Below are positions 10,718-63,452 of a stretch of 64,000 nucleotides of DNA, in pieces. Source of the stretch: Methanocaldococcus bathoardescens. GTDB taxonomy: Archaea; AGJL01; Methanococci; Methanococcales; Methanocaldococcaceae. The notes beneath the pieces were generated by a model. That model was not told the origin of the DNA and made no database searches. It was given only the letters and a program-made list of their open reading frames with translations. The DNA lies in NCBI RefSeq assembly GCF_000739065.1, contig NZ_CP009149.1, positions 868,001 through 932,000 of the forward strand. Reading direction: 5' to 3'. Position numbers and translations under genes: made by a program. How positions within the stretch are numbered: position 1 is the first letter of the stretch; each line of letters starts with the position of its first letter.

Positions 10718-11422
10718 TTAGTGGCTATCACATGTCCATACTTGTCTGAAGTGTTCAATTGCTTCGACAATATCCTTTAATTTTTCTGGTGGGAAGGCAA
10801 CAACAACTTCTCCTGGCTGTATTCCAGCGTATTTTCTTGAACCGTTACAACCTAAGGTCATGTTAGGTGCTTTTCTTGTATAAACTGCTGCAACTGCATC
10901 AGCACATAATGACTGAATTCCTGAGAAGTCTGCCTGGAATCTTCCACCTTTGTGGTAGAGCATTGCCTGAACTAATCTTAATGCATATAATGCTTCTCCA
11001 ATGAATACTATTGAATCTGGGACGAAGTCAGCTTCATCTAATGGAGCATAAACTGATGCGTAAATCTCATCTTCAACTCTTGGTATTGCTTCAACAGTTT
11101 TTTTAGCTGCCTCTTCATCCTTAAAGTTTCCTAATTTAACATACAATTTTCCTGTTGCCAATGGTTCTGGTGGGTTTCTAAAGATACCAATTGCATAAGC
11201 CCCTCCCTTACAGAGATGTTTATCAAGTGGTGCATACATTTTCTTTCTTTCTAATCTTGCAATTTGAATCATTTCACAGTGTCTTTTTTCTTCTGCTATT
11301 TCTTCATAACCTTCTGGAATTTCATCTTTTGATTTTGCTAATTTTACAGCAACAAATGGCTTGTCTAACATCATCAATTCCATTAATTTCTTTCCATATT
11401 CTCTTATTTCATTAACATCCAT
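10718..11422 (-). CDS. DUF169 family protein
   Basis: A 234-residue protein of the DUF169 (COG2043) family. It starts MDVNEIREYGKKLMELMMLDKPFVAVKLAKSKDEIPEGYEE and contains conserved cysteines in EKRHCEMIQ, KHLCKGGAYAIG, SLCADAVAA and TLGCNGSRKYAGI. The family is widespread in methanogens and strict anaerobes and has no established biochemical role; the spaced cysteines suggest metal or cofactor binding. It lies downstream of the polyamine genes but has its own promoter. Confidence 0.75.
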   Translation of the reverse strand: MDVNEIREYGKKLMELMMLDKPFVAVKLAKSKDEIPEGYEEIAEEKRHCEMIQIARLERKKMYAPLDKHLCKGGAYAIGIFRNPPEPLATGKLYVKLGNFKDEEAAKKTVEAIPRVEDEIYASVYAPLDEADFVPDSIVFIGEALYALRLVQAMLYHKGGRFQADFSGIQSLCADAVAAVYTRKAPNMTLGCNGSRKYAGIQPGEVVVAFPPEKLKDIVEAIEHFRQVWTCDSH

Positions 11423-11475
11423 GCTTTCACCTGTGAATGGTTGTGTATGTTCTACGAACTATATATTGTATTCCC

Positions 11476-11489
11476 AAGTATATATACTT
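11476..11489 (-). promoter_or_regulatory. Palindromic TATA region of the DUF169 gene
   Basis: The perfect palindrome AAGTATATATACTT lies about 55 bases before the DUF169 start. On the minus strand it is preceded by TCGAA, a plausible BRE, so this is the likely TATA box. The predicted leader is about 30 bases. The symmetry could also serve a repressor. Confidence 0.5.
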
Positions 11490-11619
11490 TTCGATTTAAT
11501 TACAAAACATAAAAAATTTAAATTACAAAAAAAGCGTTTTCATAAAAAATAATTAAAAATAATGATAACTCTTTTCAAAATAACCATGAAATATTTTTAA
11601 CACATATGCTCAAAACCTG

Positions 11620-12474
11620 TTATAAAATCATTAACATAAGCTCTCTCGCTATTTTTGCCGCTGTTATTGCTGTAATATTGGCAATATCATAAATTGGTGA
11701 AACTTCAACAATATCAAAGCCAATAATCCTATCTTTAACCTCTTCTAATAAATATAGAGAGTTAAAGAGCTCTCTTGTTGAAAAACCACAAGGTTCCGGG
11801 GTTCCAGTTCCTGGGGCATAGGCAGGGTCTAACACATCAATATCTATAGTTATATATATTGGCTTATCTAAACTCTTTATATATTCTAAATCATCCTCAT
11901 TCATCAAATCCATTTTTAAATAGAGATTATTTTTCTTTGCAAAATCCCACTCTTCTTTATCCCCACTCCTAATACCAAATTGGAATATATCTTTAGTTAA
12001 TTCATAAACCCTCCTCATAACACATGCATGAGATAATTTATTCCCTAAATATTCATCTCTCAAATCACAGTGGGCATCGAATTGAATAACAATAAAATCA
12101 TCATAGATATCTTTTACAGCTTTAATTATTGGATAAGTTATAGAATGCTCCCCTCCAAAAACAATTATTTTTTTACCTTTTTTTAATATTTCTCTTGAGA
12201 CATGATGTATTGTGTTAAATATCTCTGCTTGGCTTCCATATAAATCTAAATCCTTTAAATCACAGTATTTTATTTCTGACAAATCCCTATCTAAGATAGG
12301 ACTATATGTTTCCAAACCCCACGATGCTGTTCTTATAGCATTTCCCCCTTCTCTTGTTCCTGGCTTGAAGGAAGTTGTTTCATCATAAGGGATTGAAAAT
12401 ATAACTCCATCAGCTTCTTCAAATGAGCTATTTGTCATTATAAATTTAGATGAATCAATAAAATGCTCTTCCAT
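11620..12474 (-). CDS. speB: Agmatinase (ureohydrolase family)
   Basis: A 284-residue ureohydrolase with the manganese-ligand motifs [19 protein letters not shown] and [21 protein letters not shown]. It hydrolyses agmatine to putrescine and urea, the step after arginine decarboxylase. It is the last gene of the pdaD-speH-speE-speB cluster on the minus strand, 51 bases after speE. The context makes agmatinase much likelier than arginase. Confidence 0.93.
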
Positions 12475-12525
12475 CTAACCACCTCCAAGATTTTAGACTT
12501 TAAAAATAATTAAAAATAATAAAAA

Positions 12526-13410
12526 TTATTCAAGAGCTTTTTTAACAGCATCTTTTAAAAATTTAGGTGCTGCCAAAAATATTCCCTTATGAACTTCTTC
12601 ATCATAGTATTTAGTTTCCATATCTTTTAAAGCTTCTTTTATTCTTTCTTCATCAACTTCTAATGGGCTGTATTTTTTAGATGCCAATGTGAAGCTCCAG
12701 AATCCACTTGGATATGTTGGCATTGGGTAGGTGTATGGCATAATTATCTTAAATCCAGCGTCTTTTAAATATCTGCAGATATTTTGTATTAAATCTAAGT
12801 TATATAATGGACTTTCTGATTGCTGAACCATAATTCCGTCATCATTTAAACATTTAAATACATTTTTATAGAATTCTTTCTCAAAAAGCCCCTTAGCAGG
12901 TCCAACAGGGTCTGGACAATCAACAATAATCACATCATATTTTTTGTCAGTTTCAGCAACATATCTAATACCATCTGTTATTATCAAATTTACCTTCTCA
13001 TTGTCTATTTCACAACTTAACTTTGGCATATACTTTTTACAAGCTTCAATAACTTTTCTATCCAACTCAACAAAATCCACAGTTTCAACTGATTTGTGTT
13101 TAACTACCTCTCTAACTGTTCCTCCATCTCCTCCTCCAATAACTAAAACATTCTTTGGATTTGGGTGAGTGAAAAGAGGGATGTGAGATATTAATTCATG
13201 GTATATAAATTCATCTCTCTCTGTTGTTTGAAAAGTGTTATCTAAAACCAAAACTTTTCCAAAATCATAAGTGTCAATAATCTCTATTTCTTGAAATTCT
13301 GATTTATCCATGTATAAAATATCTTTGACTCTAACTGACAGAGCTACATTGTTGTTATGGTATTCTGTAAACCATATATGGCATTTAAAATTGTTGTTGT
13401 TTTGATTCAC
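12526..13410 (-). CDS. speE: Spermidine synthase (polyamine aminopropyltransferase)
   Basis: A 294-residue protein with the aminopropyltransferase core: [30 protein letters not shown] and [16 protein letters not shown]. It moves the aminopropyl group of decarboxylated S-adenosylmethionine to putrescine. The start is a GTG whose GTGA overlaps the stop of speH, so the two are translationally coupled. The N terminus carries a short asparagine-rich stretch not typical of the family. Confidence 0.94.
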
Positions 13411-13778
13411 TCTTCATCACCTTCATTTAACCTTATACCTCTCTTTAAATCTAAAATCTCAATGTGTTTTGGTTTTAAAAATTCTTTAATAATTGGTAGT
13501 GCTTTTGCTGGCTCAACATGAGCTCCACAAGTAAAAATATCCATAGCAGCATATCCAAGCTCAGGCCATGTGTGAATTGATATGTGGCTCTCTGCCAAAA
13601 CAGCAACTCCTGTAGCTCCTTGAGGGGAAAATTTGTGAGTTCTTACACAAATTAAAGTAGCTCCACATGCCTCTACACTATCTATCAACATCTTCTCTAT
13701 GCCCTCAACGTCATCTAATGCCTTTGGGTCACACCCCCATAACTCTAATATTAAGTGTTTTCCCAAGTATTTTAACAT
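13407..13778 (-). CDS. speH: S-adenosylmethionine decarboxylase proenzyme
   Basis: About 123 residues starting [16 protein letters not shown] after GGAGGTGA; the in-frame TTG at 13793 lies on the ribosome binding site and is rejected. The self-cleavage site is visible in [11 protein letters not shown], where the serine becomes the pyruvoyl cofactor, and the conserved cysteine is in DIFTCGAH. It provides decarboxylated S-adenosylmethionine for SpeE, directly downstream with a four-base overlap. Confidence 0.95.
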
Positions 13779-56422: not shown

Positions 56423-57016
56423 TTCAATTTCAAATCTTTTAAGTTCAGAAACATTCATCCTATCTTTTAAAAACTCTTTTGGAATTAAGTATAAAAATTT
56501 TGGCTCATACGGTTCTCCTTTTAATCCTAAAACAACAGCATCAATATTATCTGGATATTTTAAGTTTATAATTTCATTTATTGGATAGGATTTTTTAAAT
56601 ATTGGGTATATTTTGAATCCTTTAAAGTAAATACCATCCTCTCTAAACTCTGCCCCAATATTTTTTAAATAATAAGTAAATGCCTTTGTATTTTCATCTA
56701 AATAGTTTAATAAAGTGGTTATGTTATTTGCTCTAATTGTATTATCCTCTATCTCTATTCTCTTAGCAAAATTTATCTTTATTTCTCCATTTGTTGATGC
56801 ATCCTCAATCTTTATCTTTTTCCTCCTAAGTTTATACCAAATTTTTTTGAAGAATGACTTTACTTTATATTTTAATAAAATATATCCTCCAAATATTGCC
56901 ATTAGAATTAAAAATATTGGTAAAGCAACTAATGCCAAAATCACCAATAGCAATAAAATTAGGAATATTAAAAAAATTCCTGTGATTCCACTAACTCTAT
57001 AAACTTTAACTTTCAT
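56417..57016 (-). CDS. Hypothetical membrane-anchored protein
   Basis: A 199-residue protein. Residues 9-48 are strongly hydrophobic (two membrane segments split by a short turn, [11 protein letters not shown]), followed by a basic stretch [19 protein letters not shown], and a soluble domain of about 130 residues facing the cytosol. I do not recognise the soluble domain. Its start overlaps the PP-loop gene by 4 bases (coupled), and its stop overlaps the convergent serA stop by 6 bases. Confidence 0.7.
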
Positions 57017-57891
57017 CTGTAATCCCTCAGTGCATTTTTAATTAAAGTTATGTATTCATCTTTTTTGGGTACTACCATAATCTTTTTAGATGGTAATTTT
57101 ATAGAAGCCCTAAATCCATATTTTCTTGCTACTTCAGTGGCTATTTTATTATATTTATAGAGTTCATTAAAGAGTTTCTCATTTAGTGTTGTATTTTCAT
57201 CGGCATACTGCAAACAACATCCCTCTCTCCAAAATCCAATTTTATCTCCTACTTCATGAGCTCTCTCTACTTTTATATTGTAATAATTCATTAAATTTAA
57301 AACATCCTCAAAAGCTAATCTTATCAAAGGTCTAAAGAATAAAACTTCTTTATCTTTACCTTTACTATATTTTTGTGGGACTGGTGTGAGTTCCATTTTG
57401 TTATAAACTACCTCTCCATAAACATCTCTCAAATAATTCATAACAGCTCCTGAAATTTTTTCGAGAGCTGAATCACCAGTCATAATTATTCTAATTCCTT
57501 TTTCTTTAGCTATATCAACAGCTTTATCTTTCATTATATTTTTACATATTCTGCAGATACTACTACCCTTAGCTCCCTTAGTTCTTTTTAAAAGCTCATC
57601 TGTAATATCATAAAATATAACTGGAATATCAAATCTCTCAGAAATTTTCTCAACCATTTTCTTTGAAATGTCCCAACTCCATCTGTGGTAGAAATGTATT
57701 AAATATTCTATCTTTAAATTTAAATCTTTAGCTAAAGCTATTGCAGTTGAAGAATCTTTTCCACCACTCGCCATAACTACAATTCCTTCATTTAAAGCAT
57801 CCTTTTCTTTAAATTGCTCTATAATATCTCTTTTTAATTCTTCTAAATTGTTTAATTTTCTTTTATTTTTTGTCCATTCTGAAAATTCCAT
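57013..57891 (-). CDS. PP-loop ATP pyrophosphatase (tRNA-thiolation-like)
   Basis: About 292 residues, starting [15 protein letters not shown], with a possible start four codons earlier at 57903. The PP-loop is [21 protein letters not shown] pair and late cysteines in [11 protein letters not shown] suggest a metal or sulfur site. This is the layout of N-type ATP pyrophosphatases that thiolate tRNA (TtcA/NcsA relatives). The M. jannaschii homologue is uncharacterised to my knowledge. It is co-transcribed with the membrane protein gene downstream. Confidence 0.78.
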
Positions 57892-57903
57892 GGTTTCACA
57901 CAT

Positions 57904-58247: not shown

Positions 58248-59954
58248 ATGGAAGGCATGAAATTAGATTATAAAGTATTTTTGATTTCAGTAGTTTTATA
58301 TTTGTGTATTGTTATTATCTCAAACCTTTTTGGAAATATATATATTTTGACATTGCTTGGAATAATATTCTCCATCATTATCACACTATTAGTAAAAAAA
58401 TTAATTTTATACCCTATTGAAGAAATTATAAAGTTAATTGAAAAATTTGAAAAAGAAAATTCTATTGAAGGGTTAGAATTAGACACCAAAATAAAAAATC
58501 AAGAATTTAAATTATTGTATGAGAAAATAATCCACCTTATAAAATCTCTAAAAGAAAAAGAAGAAAAATTAAAACAGACAGAAAAAGAGCTTTCACAGAC
58601 TTTTAGAGAAGCTTTAGAAGCATTAGAGCATTTAGCTAAAGGAGATTTTTCAATAAGATTGAATGAAAATAGAAAAAGAAATAGATTTCAAAAAATGTTT
58701 AATAAAGCAATAGAGAATATATCTACAATTATTGAGAATATAAGAAAAGAAGTTTTAGATCTAAATGTGCAGATTGAAGTATTAAGAAAAGAAACAAAAA
58801 AAGCCCGTGAAGCCATTGAACAAATGACAGATGCTGCACAACAAGTAGCAGTAGCAGCATCAGACCAATCAACCAAACTACAAGATGTTACACAAGAAGT
58901 TGAGAAAACAAACGAACTTGCAAAAAGAACCGAAAAGTTGTCTGAAGAAGGTGAAAGGGTATCAGTAGAAGCCAGTGAAAAAGCTGATGAAGGAATAAAA
59001 AAGATTGAAAATGCAGTTGAAGCTATGCAAAAAATATCAAATGTCATTGAAGAGTTAAGTAAAGCAATTCAAGAACTTGGGGACAAATCTAAAAAAATCA
59101 ACGAAATTACTTCCTTAATTAAAGATATTGCCGAACAAACTGGATTATTAGCTTTAAACGCTTCTATCGAAGCGGCAAGAGCTGGAGAAGCTGGAAGAGG
59201 TTTCGCGGTTGTAGCAAGTGAAATTAAAAGCTTAGCAGAGGAAATTGGTAAATCAGTAGATGATATTAATAAAACCATAGATGAAATATATAAACATATA
59301 GAAAAAACGGTTAATCTTGGAATGATTGGTAAAAGTGAAGTAGATAAAGGAGTTATTGCAGTTGATGAAGTTAATGCAGTATTTTTACAAATAAAAGAAA
59401 GTATTGATAACACCACTGATAAAATAAAGGATATAAGAAAATCTGCTGAGGTTACAATAGAGAACATGGAAAAAGCTTTGAAAGATGTTCAAGATATTGC
59501 CTCAATATCTGAGGAGTTTACAGCAACTGCTGAAGAATTATCAGCAAATGCTGAAGAAGAGAGAAGAGCAATTGAAGAAATTGAAGAGGTTATTATAAAC
59601 TTAGAAAAGGTTTCAAAATCTGTTAAAGAGAATATTATGAAAATTAAAACTACTAAAAATATTACCGTAGATGAAGCTGTAAAGCTATTAAAAAATGATG
59701 AGTGGTTCTTTGTCAATGTAGTCCCAAAAGATAAATATGATGGAAAAATACCAAATTCAATTCATATTCCAATCGATGAACTTGAAAGTAGATTAGACGA
59801 GATTCCTAAAGATAAAAAGATTGTTGTATATTGTAAATTAGGATTCACAAGTCCAAGAGGATATATGATATTAAAAGAAAAAGGATACGATGTTTACAAT
59901 ATGGAAGGTGGTTTAAAAGCTTGGAGAGACAGTGGATATCCCGTAGAACCATAA
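58248..59954 (+). CDS. Chemoreceptor (methyl-accepting protein) fused to a C-terminal rhodanese domain
   Basis: A 568-residue protein. Two hydrophobic segments (about 8-28 and 32-50) are joined by only a few residues, so there is no outside sensor domain. HAMP-like helices follow (about 55-180). The MA signalling domain (about 190-465) has the hairpin tip [28 protein letters not shown] (in two parts). The last 100 residues are a rhodanese domain: [34 protein letters not shown], catalytic loop [13 protein letters not shown] with one cysteine, and [15 protein letters not shown]. It probably senses a sulfur or redox state in the cytosol and signals to CheA. Its stop lies 3 bases from the cheD stop on the other strand. 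Confidence 0.9.
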
Positions 59955-59957
59955 ACC

Positions 59958-60419
59958 TTAAATAGTTATTATTTGGCCGCCTTTTTTAACTTCTACTTTT
60001 CCATCTCTTAAATAAAATTTTACTATTCTACTTCTATTTCCTCCAGTATCTTCACCTTTTAATGGAATCCCATATTGCTTTAATAATTTTTTTGCCATTT
60101 CTACATTTTTAGCCCCAATATTCATAGAGTTATTTGTTTTGAACATTGCCGCCCCTCCAGCAAGTTTAGCAACCAATTTATTAGCCCTCGCTCCTGCTAT
60201 AGTCATTTTTGTTATTAATGCAGGTATTGCTGTATTTACATACTTTCCAGGGTCTCTAACATTTTCATCACGGGTTTCAGGAAGAACTGAATGAGCCATT
60301 CCTCCAATCCTCTTACCTGTATCATATAACATAATAGCTACACAAGAGCCTAATAATGTCTCCAACACCTCAGGACTTCTCGCCACTTCCAAACCCCCTA
60401 TCCTAACTTTAATCACCAT
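59958..60419 (-). CDS. cheD: Chemoreceptor glutamine deamidase CheD
   Basis: A 153-residue protein starting MVIKVRIGGLEVARSPEVLE. It has the catalytic cysteine in LLGSCVAIMLYD, the histidine in IGGMAHSVLPE, and KLAGGAAMF. CheD deamidates chemoreceptor glutamines and, with CheC, links adaptation to CheY. It is the last visible gene of the minus-strand che cluster, 102 bases after cheA. The neighbouring receptor has glutamines in its methylation helices that could be targets. Confidence 0.93.
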   Translation of the reverse strand: MVIKVRIGGLEVARSPEVLETLLGSCVAIMLYDTGKRIGGMAHSVLPETRDENVRDPGKYVNTAIPALITKMTIAGARANKLVAKLAGGAAMFKTNNSMNIGAKNVEMAKKLLKQYGIPLKGEDTGGNRSRIVKFYLRDGKVEVKKGGQIITI

Positions 60420-60460
60420 ATTAACAACCCTATACATTTTTAATAAAAGCTTAATATATT

Positions 60461-60520: not shown

Positions 60521-62953
60521 TTAAGCACTACTTAAATCCAATATCAACGCCACTCTACCGTCTCCAAGAATTGTTGCACCAGCAAGTCCGGGTATGTTCT
60601 TCAATATCCCAGTAAGTGATTTAACTACAATATCTTCCCTACCTATCACTTCATCTACAACCACTCCTAATTTCCCCCCACTTCTCTCAATAACCACTAT
60701 AGTAAGTTCATCACCTCTTTCTTGTATGTATGACATGCCTAAGAAATCCTTAAGCCAAATTACCGGTATAATTTCATCTCTATATATTATAGCATTTGTA
60801 CCTTCAATGTTTTTAATATCTTCTCTATTAATCATTGTAACATCTAAAACACTTGTGATAGGTATTGCATATACTTGATCAGCTAATTTCATCAATAATG
60901 CAGTAATAATCGCCATTGTTAGTGGTAATTTAAGCACAACCTTGGTTCCTTTTCCTTTTTCAGAATATACTACAACAGTTCCTCCAAGAGATTCAATTTT
61001 TGTTTTGACAACATCCATTCCTACTCCTCTACCAGAAACATCCGAAACTTTTTCTGCAGTACTAAATCCTGGCATGAATATTAGATTAATAGCCTCATGG
61101 TCTGATAATTTTTTCGCCTCTTCTTCAGATATAATACCTCTCTCAACAGCTTTTTTCCTAATTTTATCAGGGTCAATACCTTTACCATCATCCTCAACAA
61201 TGATATTTACATGGTCTCTTTCTCTTTCAGCTATTAATTTTAAAACTCCTTTTCGTGGTTTTCCTACTTTTTCCCTCTCTTCTGGAGGTTCAATACCATG
61301 GTCAAGAGCATTTCTAATAAGGTGAACAAGTGGTTCAGCTAACTCATCTAACACTGTCCTATCAAGCTCAATATCAGTACCTTCCATTATAAACTCTACT
61401 TCTTTACCTAACGCCTTAGCAAGGTCTCTAACCATTCTTGGGAATCTGTTAAATACATATGCTACCGGAATCATCCTCATAGCCATTACTTCTTCCTGCA
61501 ACTCATTAATCAACATACTTAATCTATTAATAGCATTATTTAATTCTTTTAATTGATATTTATTTGCAATTTGTGAGAAATTTGCCCTTGTAATTACCAA
61601 TTCCCCAACAAGATTCATTAATTTATCTAATTTTTCAATATTTATCCTTATAGTTTGTGTTGATTTTTTCTCTTCTTTTTTGGCAGTTGTTGTTGGTTTT
61701 TTTGGTTCTGGTTTCTTTTCTTCTGATTTTTGCTGTTGTTGTGATTGAGGTTTAGTTTCTTCTTTTTGTTCAGATTTTTGTTCCTCTTCGGATTTAGAAG
61801 TTTCTTCTCCAGGAGCAATTATTTGAACATCCTTTATTTCAGGAACTTTCATTACACACTCTCTTATATCATCAACCTCATAACCTTCTTTTAGTTTCAT
61901 ATAAACTGTAAATTTTGTTCCATTAAATTCTCCATCTTGTATTGTTTCAATTGGAGGATTTGTTTTTACTATCTCACCGATATTTTGCAGCTCTTTAATA
62001 ACCATATAAGCTCTTACCGCTCTTAAAAGACATTCGTCATCAAGAGTAACTACAACTTTATATGCATCTGGGATATCATCTTCAGTAGCCACTTCTTCCT
62101 GAGTTTCTTCCACTTCAATAACTTCCTCTTCAAATTCAATATCTACTGGAGATATTGCAATATAATCAATTTCAGGAACTGTTTCTAACTCTTTTTGTAT
62201 TTCTTCAACACTTTTATCAGATAAAAACATTACTTCTAATTCTTCAAATGATTGTTCTTTTAATTCTCCTTCAGTAGGTGTTGAAAGTAGAATTTCTCCA
62301 ATATTCTTTATCCTTGTTAATACCATAGACAATCTTGCAGATTTTAATGGGCATTCATCATCAACTTTGGCTTTTAAGTGATATAGCTTATAGCCACTAT
62401 CTACTTTTTCTTTAATAATATCAACAAATTCGCTAAGGTCAAATTTTTCATGATTTAATTCTACTTCTATTTCAATTTCTTTTTCAATTTCTTTTATCTC
62501 TGGTTCTTTAGGAGATTGTGACTTTAATGCCTCTTCAATTCTACTACTTACTTCATCTACACTAATTCCTAATTCCCCAGCTTTTTTTCCTTTTTCTAAG
62601 CCAGATGCAATATCTTCAAGAATTTTTGTAATGTATTTTAAGGTCTCAAAAATCTTTTTATTTACTTTTACATCTTCATCCGATATTTGTTTTACAAATT
62701 CCTTAATTTTTATCATCAATGGTTTAAGGTCTGGGTCATCAACAACTTCTACCAAAGTACAGAAAATATCTACGGATTTATTTATGCTATTGATTATTTC
62801 ATCAAGGTCTTCGGGAACTTCAAATTCTTCTTCGGATTCTTCCGGTAGTACTTCAATTTTCTCTTTAATAATTTTTTTAACTTTAACTGTAGTTTTTGGC
62901 GTTTTGTACTTTAATTTTATTCTTTTTATTTCTTTTTTTACATCCTTTTTTTC
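60521..62953 (-). CDS. cheA: Chemotaxis histidine kinase CheA, C-terminal portion (frameshifted from the N-terminal part)
   Basis: The frame is open from just after a TAA at 62954-62956 down to the stop, about 810 codons; it has no good start of its own (first TTG at 62755). It contains two similar P2-like (CheY-binding) domains, one with KLYHLKAKVDDECPLKSARL and one with YKVVVTLDDECLLRAVRAYM. Then come a Q/K/E-rich linker, the P3 dimerisation helices, the P4 kinase (LVHLIRNALDHG, VEDDGKGIDPDKI, GRGVGMDVVKTKI) and the P5 CheW-like domain. The Hpt domain is in the other frame at 62883-63452. Joined, the protein would be about 976 residues. Confidence 0.85.
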   Translation of the reverse strand, partial: EKKDVKKEIKRIKLKYKTPKTTVKVKKIIKEKIEVLPEESEEEFEVPEDLDEIINSINKSVDIFCTLVEVVDDPDLKPLMIKIKEFVKQISDEDVKVNKKIFETLKYITKILEDIASGLEKGKKAGELGISVDEVSSRIEEALKSQSPKEPEIKEIEKEIEIEVELNHEKFDLSEFVDIIKEKVDSGYKLYHLKAKVDDECPLKSARLSMVLTRIKNIGEILLSTPTEGELKEQSFEELEVMFLSDKSVEEIQKELETVPEIDYIAISPVDIEFEEEVIEVEETQEEVATEDDIPDAYKVVVTLDDECLLRAVRAYMVIKELQNIGEIVKTNPPIETIQDGEFNGTKFTVYMKLKEGYEVDDIRECVMKVPEIKDVQIIAPGEETSKSEEEQKSEQKEETKPQSQQQQKSEEKKPEPKKPTTTAKKEEKKSTQTIRINIEKLDKLMNLVGELVITRANFSQIANKYQLKELNNAINRLSMLINELQEEVMAMRMIPVAYVFNRFPRMVRDLAKALGKEVEFIMEGTDIELDRTVLDELAEPLVHLIRNALDHGIEPPEEREKVGKPRKGVLKLIAERERDHVNIIVEDDGKGIDPDKIRKKAVERGIISEEEAKKLSDHEAINLIFMPGFSTAEKVSDVSGRGVGMDVVKTKIESLGGTVVVYSEKGKGTKVVLKLPLTMAIITALLMKLADQVYAIPITSVLDVTMINREDIKNIEGTNAIIYRDEIIPVIWLKDFLGMSYIQERGDELTIVVIERSGGKLGVVVDEVIGREDIVVKSLTGILKNIPGLAGATILGDGRVALILDLSSA

Positions 62954-63452
62954 TTATTTCTTGATGTTGTTCTTTTTCAGAAGGTTTTGCAGTTTCTTCT
63001 TTAGGTTTCGATTCAGAAGGTTGAGACGATGGAGCTTCAGCAGATTGTGTAGCTCCACTAAGATATTTATCTTTAAGCTTTTTAATCTCTTCAATAATTG
63101 AATTTACATCAACAGATGTTTCTGTTTCTCCTGCTTTAACCTCATCAAGCATTGTTTCCAATGCATCCAAACATTTAAATAACATGTCAATAATCTCTGA
63201 TGTTACAGGAATTTGACCATTTCTTATATAATCTAAAATATCTTCCATATGATGAGTTAATTCAGATATATGAGATAAACCAACAGTTCTTGCTCCTCCT
63301 TTTATAGTATGGGCTGACCTAAAAATTTGATTTATTAGGTCTAAATTTGTTGGGTCTTTTTCAAGTTCTAAAAGACACTCATTGATAGTTTGTATATGTT
63401 CTTCCGCTTCTTCAGCAAATATCTCTAAATATTCCTCCATCATATCTGTCAT
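62883..63452 (-). CDS. cheA: Chemotaxis histidine kinase CheA, N-terminal Hpt portion (other frame)
   Basis: Starts MTDMMEEYLEIFAEEAEEHI after GGGGGGATAAT. The P1/Hpt helix carries the phosphorylated histidine, H48, in FRSAHTIKGGARTVG. After residue 160 the frame turns into a lysine-rich tail (KKGCKKRNKKNKIKVQNAKNYS) that does not match CheA. Two A7 runs (62946-62952 and 62933-62939, on the minus strand) lie at this point; removal of one A from either joins it to the downstream frame. So this is one cheA gene split by a 1-base shift. Confidence 0.85.
   Translation of the reverse strand: MTDMMEEYLEIFAEEAEEHIQTINECLLELEKDPTNLDLINQIFRSAHTIKGGARTVGLSHISELTHHMEDILDYIRNGQIPVTSEIIDMLFKCLDALETMLDEVKAGETETSVDVNSIIEEIKKLKDKYLSGATQSAEAPSSQPSESKPKEETAKPSEKEQHQEIRKKGCKKRNKKNKIKVQNAKNYS

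Follow-up and report, generated by a model that had tools for sequence, protein, structure and literature searches.

A chemoreceptor with a C-terminal rhodanese domain in Methanocaldococcus

The fusion gene and its surroundings

The window, by which we mean the whole stretch of 64,000 nucleotides analysed here, sits in the 1.6-Mb chromosome of the heat-loving, methanogenic archaeon Methanocaldococcus bathoardescens. It carries a gene for a chemoreceptor that ends in a rhodanese domain (Table 1). The open reading frame is unbroken from its ATG at 58248, one codon downstream of a TTG, to the stop codon at 59952-59954.

Table 1. Features of the fusion gene and of the adjacent che genes, in window coordinates
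Feature	Position	Strand	Basis
MCP-rhodanese fusion receptor, whole gene, 568 aa	58248..59954	+	ORF scan, Pfam, full-length orthologues
Membrane helix 1, about aa 8-28	58269..58331	+	hydropathy
Membrane helix 2, about aa 31-52, a few residues after helix 1	58338..58403	+	hydropathy
HAMP-like helices, aa 55-165	58410..58742	+	weak Pfam HAMP match at aa 120-143
MCP signalling domain, aa 238-419, including 23-residue hairpin tip	58959..59504	+	Pfam, invariant columns
Remainder of C-terminal coiled-coil helix, aa 420-465, with Glu pairs	59505..59642	+	alignment
Rhodanese domain, aa 473-561	59664..59930	+	Pfam, AlphaFold2, Foldseek
Codons N490-V491-V492 at the DxR motif site	59715..59723	+	alignment
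Active-site loop CKLGFTS with Cys529	59832..59852	+	alignment
cheD, convergent neighbour of the fusion gene	59958..60437	-	Pfam CheD, E 4.8e-32
cheA, two ORFs: P2-P5 (60521-62755) and Hpt (62883-63452)	60521..63452	-	frameshift, A-rich stretch

The original prediction described two adjacent membrane segments with almost no loop, HAMP-like helices, a standard receptor signalling domain and a full rhodanese domain, and no external sensor. Most of this layout is borne out. Hydropathy gives the same membrane hairpin in all five orthologues of the fusion, and the signalling domain is indeed of the standard kind, with a strong MCPsignal match (E 7e-38, 130.6 bits) and a hairpin tip that is nearly invariant among the five. 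The HAMP-like helices are supported by Pfam only below the cut-off (17.1 versus 25 bits). The Glu pairs of the last helix are of the methylation-site type and represent putative sites. The linker from this helix to the rhodanese domain is short and equally long in the five proteins, which align there without gaps; the domain itself scores far above its cut-off (E 3.6e-16, 59.9 versus 22.2 bits). The domain search that had been proposed as a check thus matched MCPsignal and Rhodanese together, both in the window protein and in every orthologue. Pfam found no further sensor domain in the five proteins, in line with the claim that an external sensor is missing. However, the sensorless N-terminus is not distinctive, because about half of the other receptors of the genus share the two-helix form. 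What is new is the fused rhodanese domain, whereas the sensorless build is common in Methanocaldococcus.

The neighbouring cheA is interrupted by a frameshift near 62924-62958. In five relatives it is intact, with frames of 950-973 codons, and the split seen here may be a sequencing (homopolymer) error or a real split CheA. Because of this frameshift a working pathway in this strain is uncertain, as is the steering of motility by the fusion receptor that had been suggested. CheW is encoded in this genome at L118:8602-9051. The che cluster on L118 also holds three minus-strand genes for probable coiled-coil proteins between receptor genes (11406-12146, 12454-12996 and 13052-13627); they have weak or borderline Pfam matches only and fall into no convincing family, and relatives of two of them are also present in the G012 cluster.

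The surroundings of the fusion gene differ among genomes: it adjoins cheD-cheA in G000 and G012, and a gene for a KaiC-like ATPase in G013 and G008. Divergent from it in the window (57013-57903, minus strand) is a gene for a PP-loop ATPase resembling QueC, PAPS reductase and ThiI, which adjoins the fusion gene in G000 and G013 and lies near it in G012. Persulfide sulfur can serve as a sulfur source for thiolation enzymes of this class. The PP-loop ATPase is nonetheless a weak candidate for a functional partner, being a neighbour in only three of the five fusion genomes, where it may reflect mere shared gene order. No sulfur gene was consistently linked to the fusion in the five neighbourhoods.

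Distribution, origin and conservation of the fusion

The full-length fusion occurs in 5 of 14 Methanocaldococcus genomes, and the other four orthologues are 81, 60, 60 and 60% identical to the window protein. The original prediction would have fallen with a stop or an assembly join between the receptor and rhodanese parts. Five independent assemblies carry the full fusion, so a chance or assembly join is excluded; there is no in-frame stop, and the full-length matches extend over 60-81% identity. We therefore reject an artefactual joining of two genes, to which we assign practically no probability.

Other receptors of the Methanococci, from 14 genomes of the genus and 36 of the class, align with the window protein only to about residue 460-490. 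In a tree of the receptors of the genus the five fusions form one clade with support of 100/100, next to the non-fusion receptor L010_487; hence, as far as the tree can tell, the fusion most likely arose once. Some ordinary receptors cluster by genome (for example in G012 and G001), as if in concerted evolution, while the fusion stays orthologous. A further sequence, L038, is an orthologue in a metagenome-assembled archaeon, and its contig appears to be the one also present in G008.

The fusion goes together with chemotaxis genes. cheA is present in 7 of the 14 Methanocaldococcus genomes, exactly those that have receptors. All five fusion-bearing genomes are among these seven, and none of the seven genomes without cheA has the fusion. 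G001 has cheA and no fusion. In G007 there is a remnant (L123:7851-8870, on G007:C66) with a fusion-like N-terminal half and a C-terminus like that of an ordinary receptor, without rhodanese; this chimera may stem from recombination or from draft assembly.

How common is this architecture elsewhere? The original prediction knew of no described receptor of this build, and would have been refuted had the fusion been common and already characterised. In four phyla, represented by about 1,230 genomes, we found no second MCP-rhodanese fusion: no match spanned receptor and rhodanese in 36 genomes of the same phylum or in three further phyla, sampled at 394, 399 and 399 genomes. These searches scored at most nine candidates per genome at strict E-values, and weakly similar or N-terminal fusions could escape them. 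Among the best 80 rhodanese loci from 84,980 species genomes, only L038 has the MCP motif in frame. Our search for viral relatives found none, and tblastn against plasmids gave only MCP matches among the matches listed, with no record covering 80% of the query. A survey of 352 archaeal genomes has no rhodanese in its main text (PMC9680633), and the titles, abstracts and selected passages of the open literature contain no description of a rhodanese chemoreceptor. On both counts the original prediction has held up: within those parts of the literature no receptor of this build is described, and in the searches made the fusion was confined to five Methanocaldococcus species. The samples searched do not prove its absence from other groups.

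Conservation is uneven along the protein. Mean pairwise identity among the five orthologues is 69.8% in the rhodanese domain, 68.5% in the MCPsignal domain and 72.8% in the last helix, against 46.0% in the HAMP-like part and 30.4% in the membrane part. At nonsynonymous sites, too, the rhodanese domain has changed as little as the signalling domain; its pN is 0.08-0.23 and its pS 0.55-0.72, in comparisons whose synonymous sites are near saturation. With a membrane anchor that drifts and a tail domain that stays conserved, the rhodanese tail is likely to be the input of the receptor.

A rhodanese domain with the loop cysteine and without DxR

An AlphaFold2 model of the rhodanese domain, built on a 43-sequence alignment, has a mean pLDDT of 96.4, and its best Foldseek matches are the solved rhodanese domains 3tp9, 3gk5, 3ict and 3nt6, with query TM scores of 0.90 for 3tp9, 0.85 for 3gk5 and 0.81 for the CoADR-RHD structure 3ict. 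Structure prediction, which had also been suggested as a check, thus returns the rhodanese fold. A full-length AlphaFold model on five sequences reached pLDDT 67 and pTM 0.30 and was left out of our conclusions.

The active-site-like cysteine was correctly placed in the loop CKLGFTS by the original prediction. The loop has the form C[KN][LM]GFTS in all five orthologues, and Cys529 is their only invariant cysteine; in one of them its counterpart is the sole cysteine of the entire protein. The usual arginine of the loop is replaced by threonine, as it also is in 13 of 79 relatives, and CKLGFT in the window protein, like C[KN][LM]GFT in all five, fits Cx4(R/T), which is among the accepted active loop forms (PMC10135228). 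Threonine at this position has been reported to equal arginine in function for thiosulfate cleavage (PMC8533005). Because threonine is both an accepted variant and present in these relatives, we do not take loss of the arginine as a sign of inactivity.

In contrast to the fold and the loop, the DxR motif, which rhodaneses carry at the end of strand 1, is gone, and this was overlooked when the domain was first called full. It is replaced by [NY]VV in all five fusions, whereas D is found in 73 of 73 and R in 76 of 76 of the non-fusion relatives that align there, including relatives with the loop threonine. The next residue is glutamate in 62 of 79 relatives and lysine in all five fusions. The function of DxR has been described as unknown (PMC10135228); hence its loss marks out a special subfamily but does not reveal what has changed. 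With DxR missing, plain rhodanese enzymology is not to be assumed. The fusion rhodanese thus keeps the predicted sulfur-carrying cysteine and yet is probably not an ordinary enzyme.

The common rhodanese of the genus (L001, G000:C1:437395-437766) has a canonical DTR and the loop CARGGMRS, and by resemblance we name it SelU/MnmH-like. A derivation of the fusion domain from this protein is unsupported.

A possible intracellular sensor and its relation to known systems

What might a chemoreceptor sense with a rhodanese tail? The C-terminal coiled-coil helix of an MCP ends close to the membrane, beside the HAMP and methylation region. In the fusion the rhodanese domain would be attached to the tip of this helix by a short linker and, we infer, lie in the cytosol. 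We propose that a membrane-anchored chemoreceptor takes its input from inside the cell, with the N-terminal hairpin serving as an anchor only. Cys529 could take up sulfane sulfur from persulfide or polysulfide, either directly or by way of a sulfur carrier protein, or could alternatively respond to thiol redox state. Modified Cys529 would shift the packing of the coiled coil, and by way of the standard signalling tip this shift would alter the kinase activity of CheA.

A chemotaxis input of this kind, set by sulfane sulfur or thiol redox state within the cell and also proposed in the original prediction, is our best reading of the sequences, and we hold it to be about as probable as its negation. 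In its favour are the conservation of the rhodanese domain and of Cys529, the active-type loop, the constant linker, the restriction to genomes with cheA, the position beside cheD-cheA in two of them and the lack of another sensor domain. Against it stand the loss of DxR, the lack of a consistently linked sulfur gene and the frameshifted cheA of this genome. More tentatively, and with confidence that stops short of an even chance, we suggest that a cysteine persulfide on the DxR-less rhodanese domain lets the receptor read sulfane sulfur in the cell, which would give vent methanogens an input to taxis not described before. Since DxR is lost in all five proteins, the reactivity of Cys529 may itself be altered or lost.

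That loss is also what favours the main rival explanation, in which the rhodanese fold serves docking or allostery and carries out no sulfur chemistry. It would bind a protein partner or a small ligand such as an anion, and its cysteine would be structural or incidental. Inactive rhodanese domains do act as interaction modules (PMC7274447, PMC10135228), and a conserved cysteine alone is no proof of chemistry, as the inactive rhodanese domain of TBC1D23 has one and binds a partner (PMC7274447). However, domains classed as inactive are generally without the cysteine (PMC10135228), and here the cysteine and its loop have been kept across about 40% protein divergence. We consider a docking or ligand-binding role, with a structural or incidental cysteine, rather unlikely.

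The fold and the active-type Cx4T loop would also suit a functioning sulfurtransferase for which the receptor is no more than a tether, and which delivers sulfur near the membrane and has little sensory role. Against this speak the missing DxR and the restriction of the fusion to species that have cheA. Moreover, the che-negative species have no stand-alone copy of this rhodanese above the Pfam cut-off, only the SelU-like protein, and we regard tethering as improbable. It is also conceivable that the fusion once mattered and is now being lost, as the decayed G007 copy, the absence of the fusion from G001 and the frameshifted cheA of this genome might suggest; but with five intact reading frames and strong purifying selection on the rhodanese domain, decay is very improbable.

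Chemoreceptors gain new senses by exchange of input domains, and the only evident sensor of this receptor is its predicted cytosolic rhodanese tail, which suggests that it may steer by internal sulfur or redox state. If so, the receptor would couple motility directly to the cell's own reactive sulfur or redox state, in organisms that live at sulfide-rich vents. Since only one cysteine is invariant, a single point mutation would suffice to test the idea.

The closest known systems each share part of this architecture. The two-helix receptors of Methanocaldococcus, such as the 494-residue frame at G000:C1:937826, have a like signalling domain, tip and pair of adjacent helices, and also have no external domain; unlike the fusion, they stop at the C-terminal helix and a short tail, with no rhodanese. 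Some archaeal class V receptors carry, as the fusion does, a putative sensor after the MCP domain and inside the cell, but their input domains are PAS/PAC, protoglobin, Cache, 4HB and others, and rhodanese is not one of those in the main text of that report (PMC9680633). TBC1D23 likewise bears a cysteine-containing rhodanese fold on a non-enzymatic module; its domain is eukaryotic and has been shown to be inactive and partner-binding (PMC7274447), whereas the fusion is archaeal. Rhodanese domains of the same fold are fused to other proteins in CoA-disulfide reductase-RHD (3ict), an NADH-dependent persulfide reductase (3nt6) and the beta-lactamase/rhodanese protein 3tp9. In those cases the partners are enzymes and the related rhodanese domains keep DxR, whereas here the partner is a chemoreceptor and DxR has been lost.
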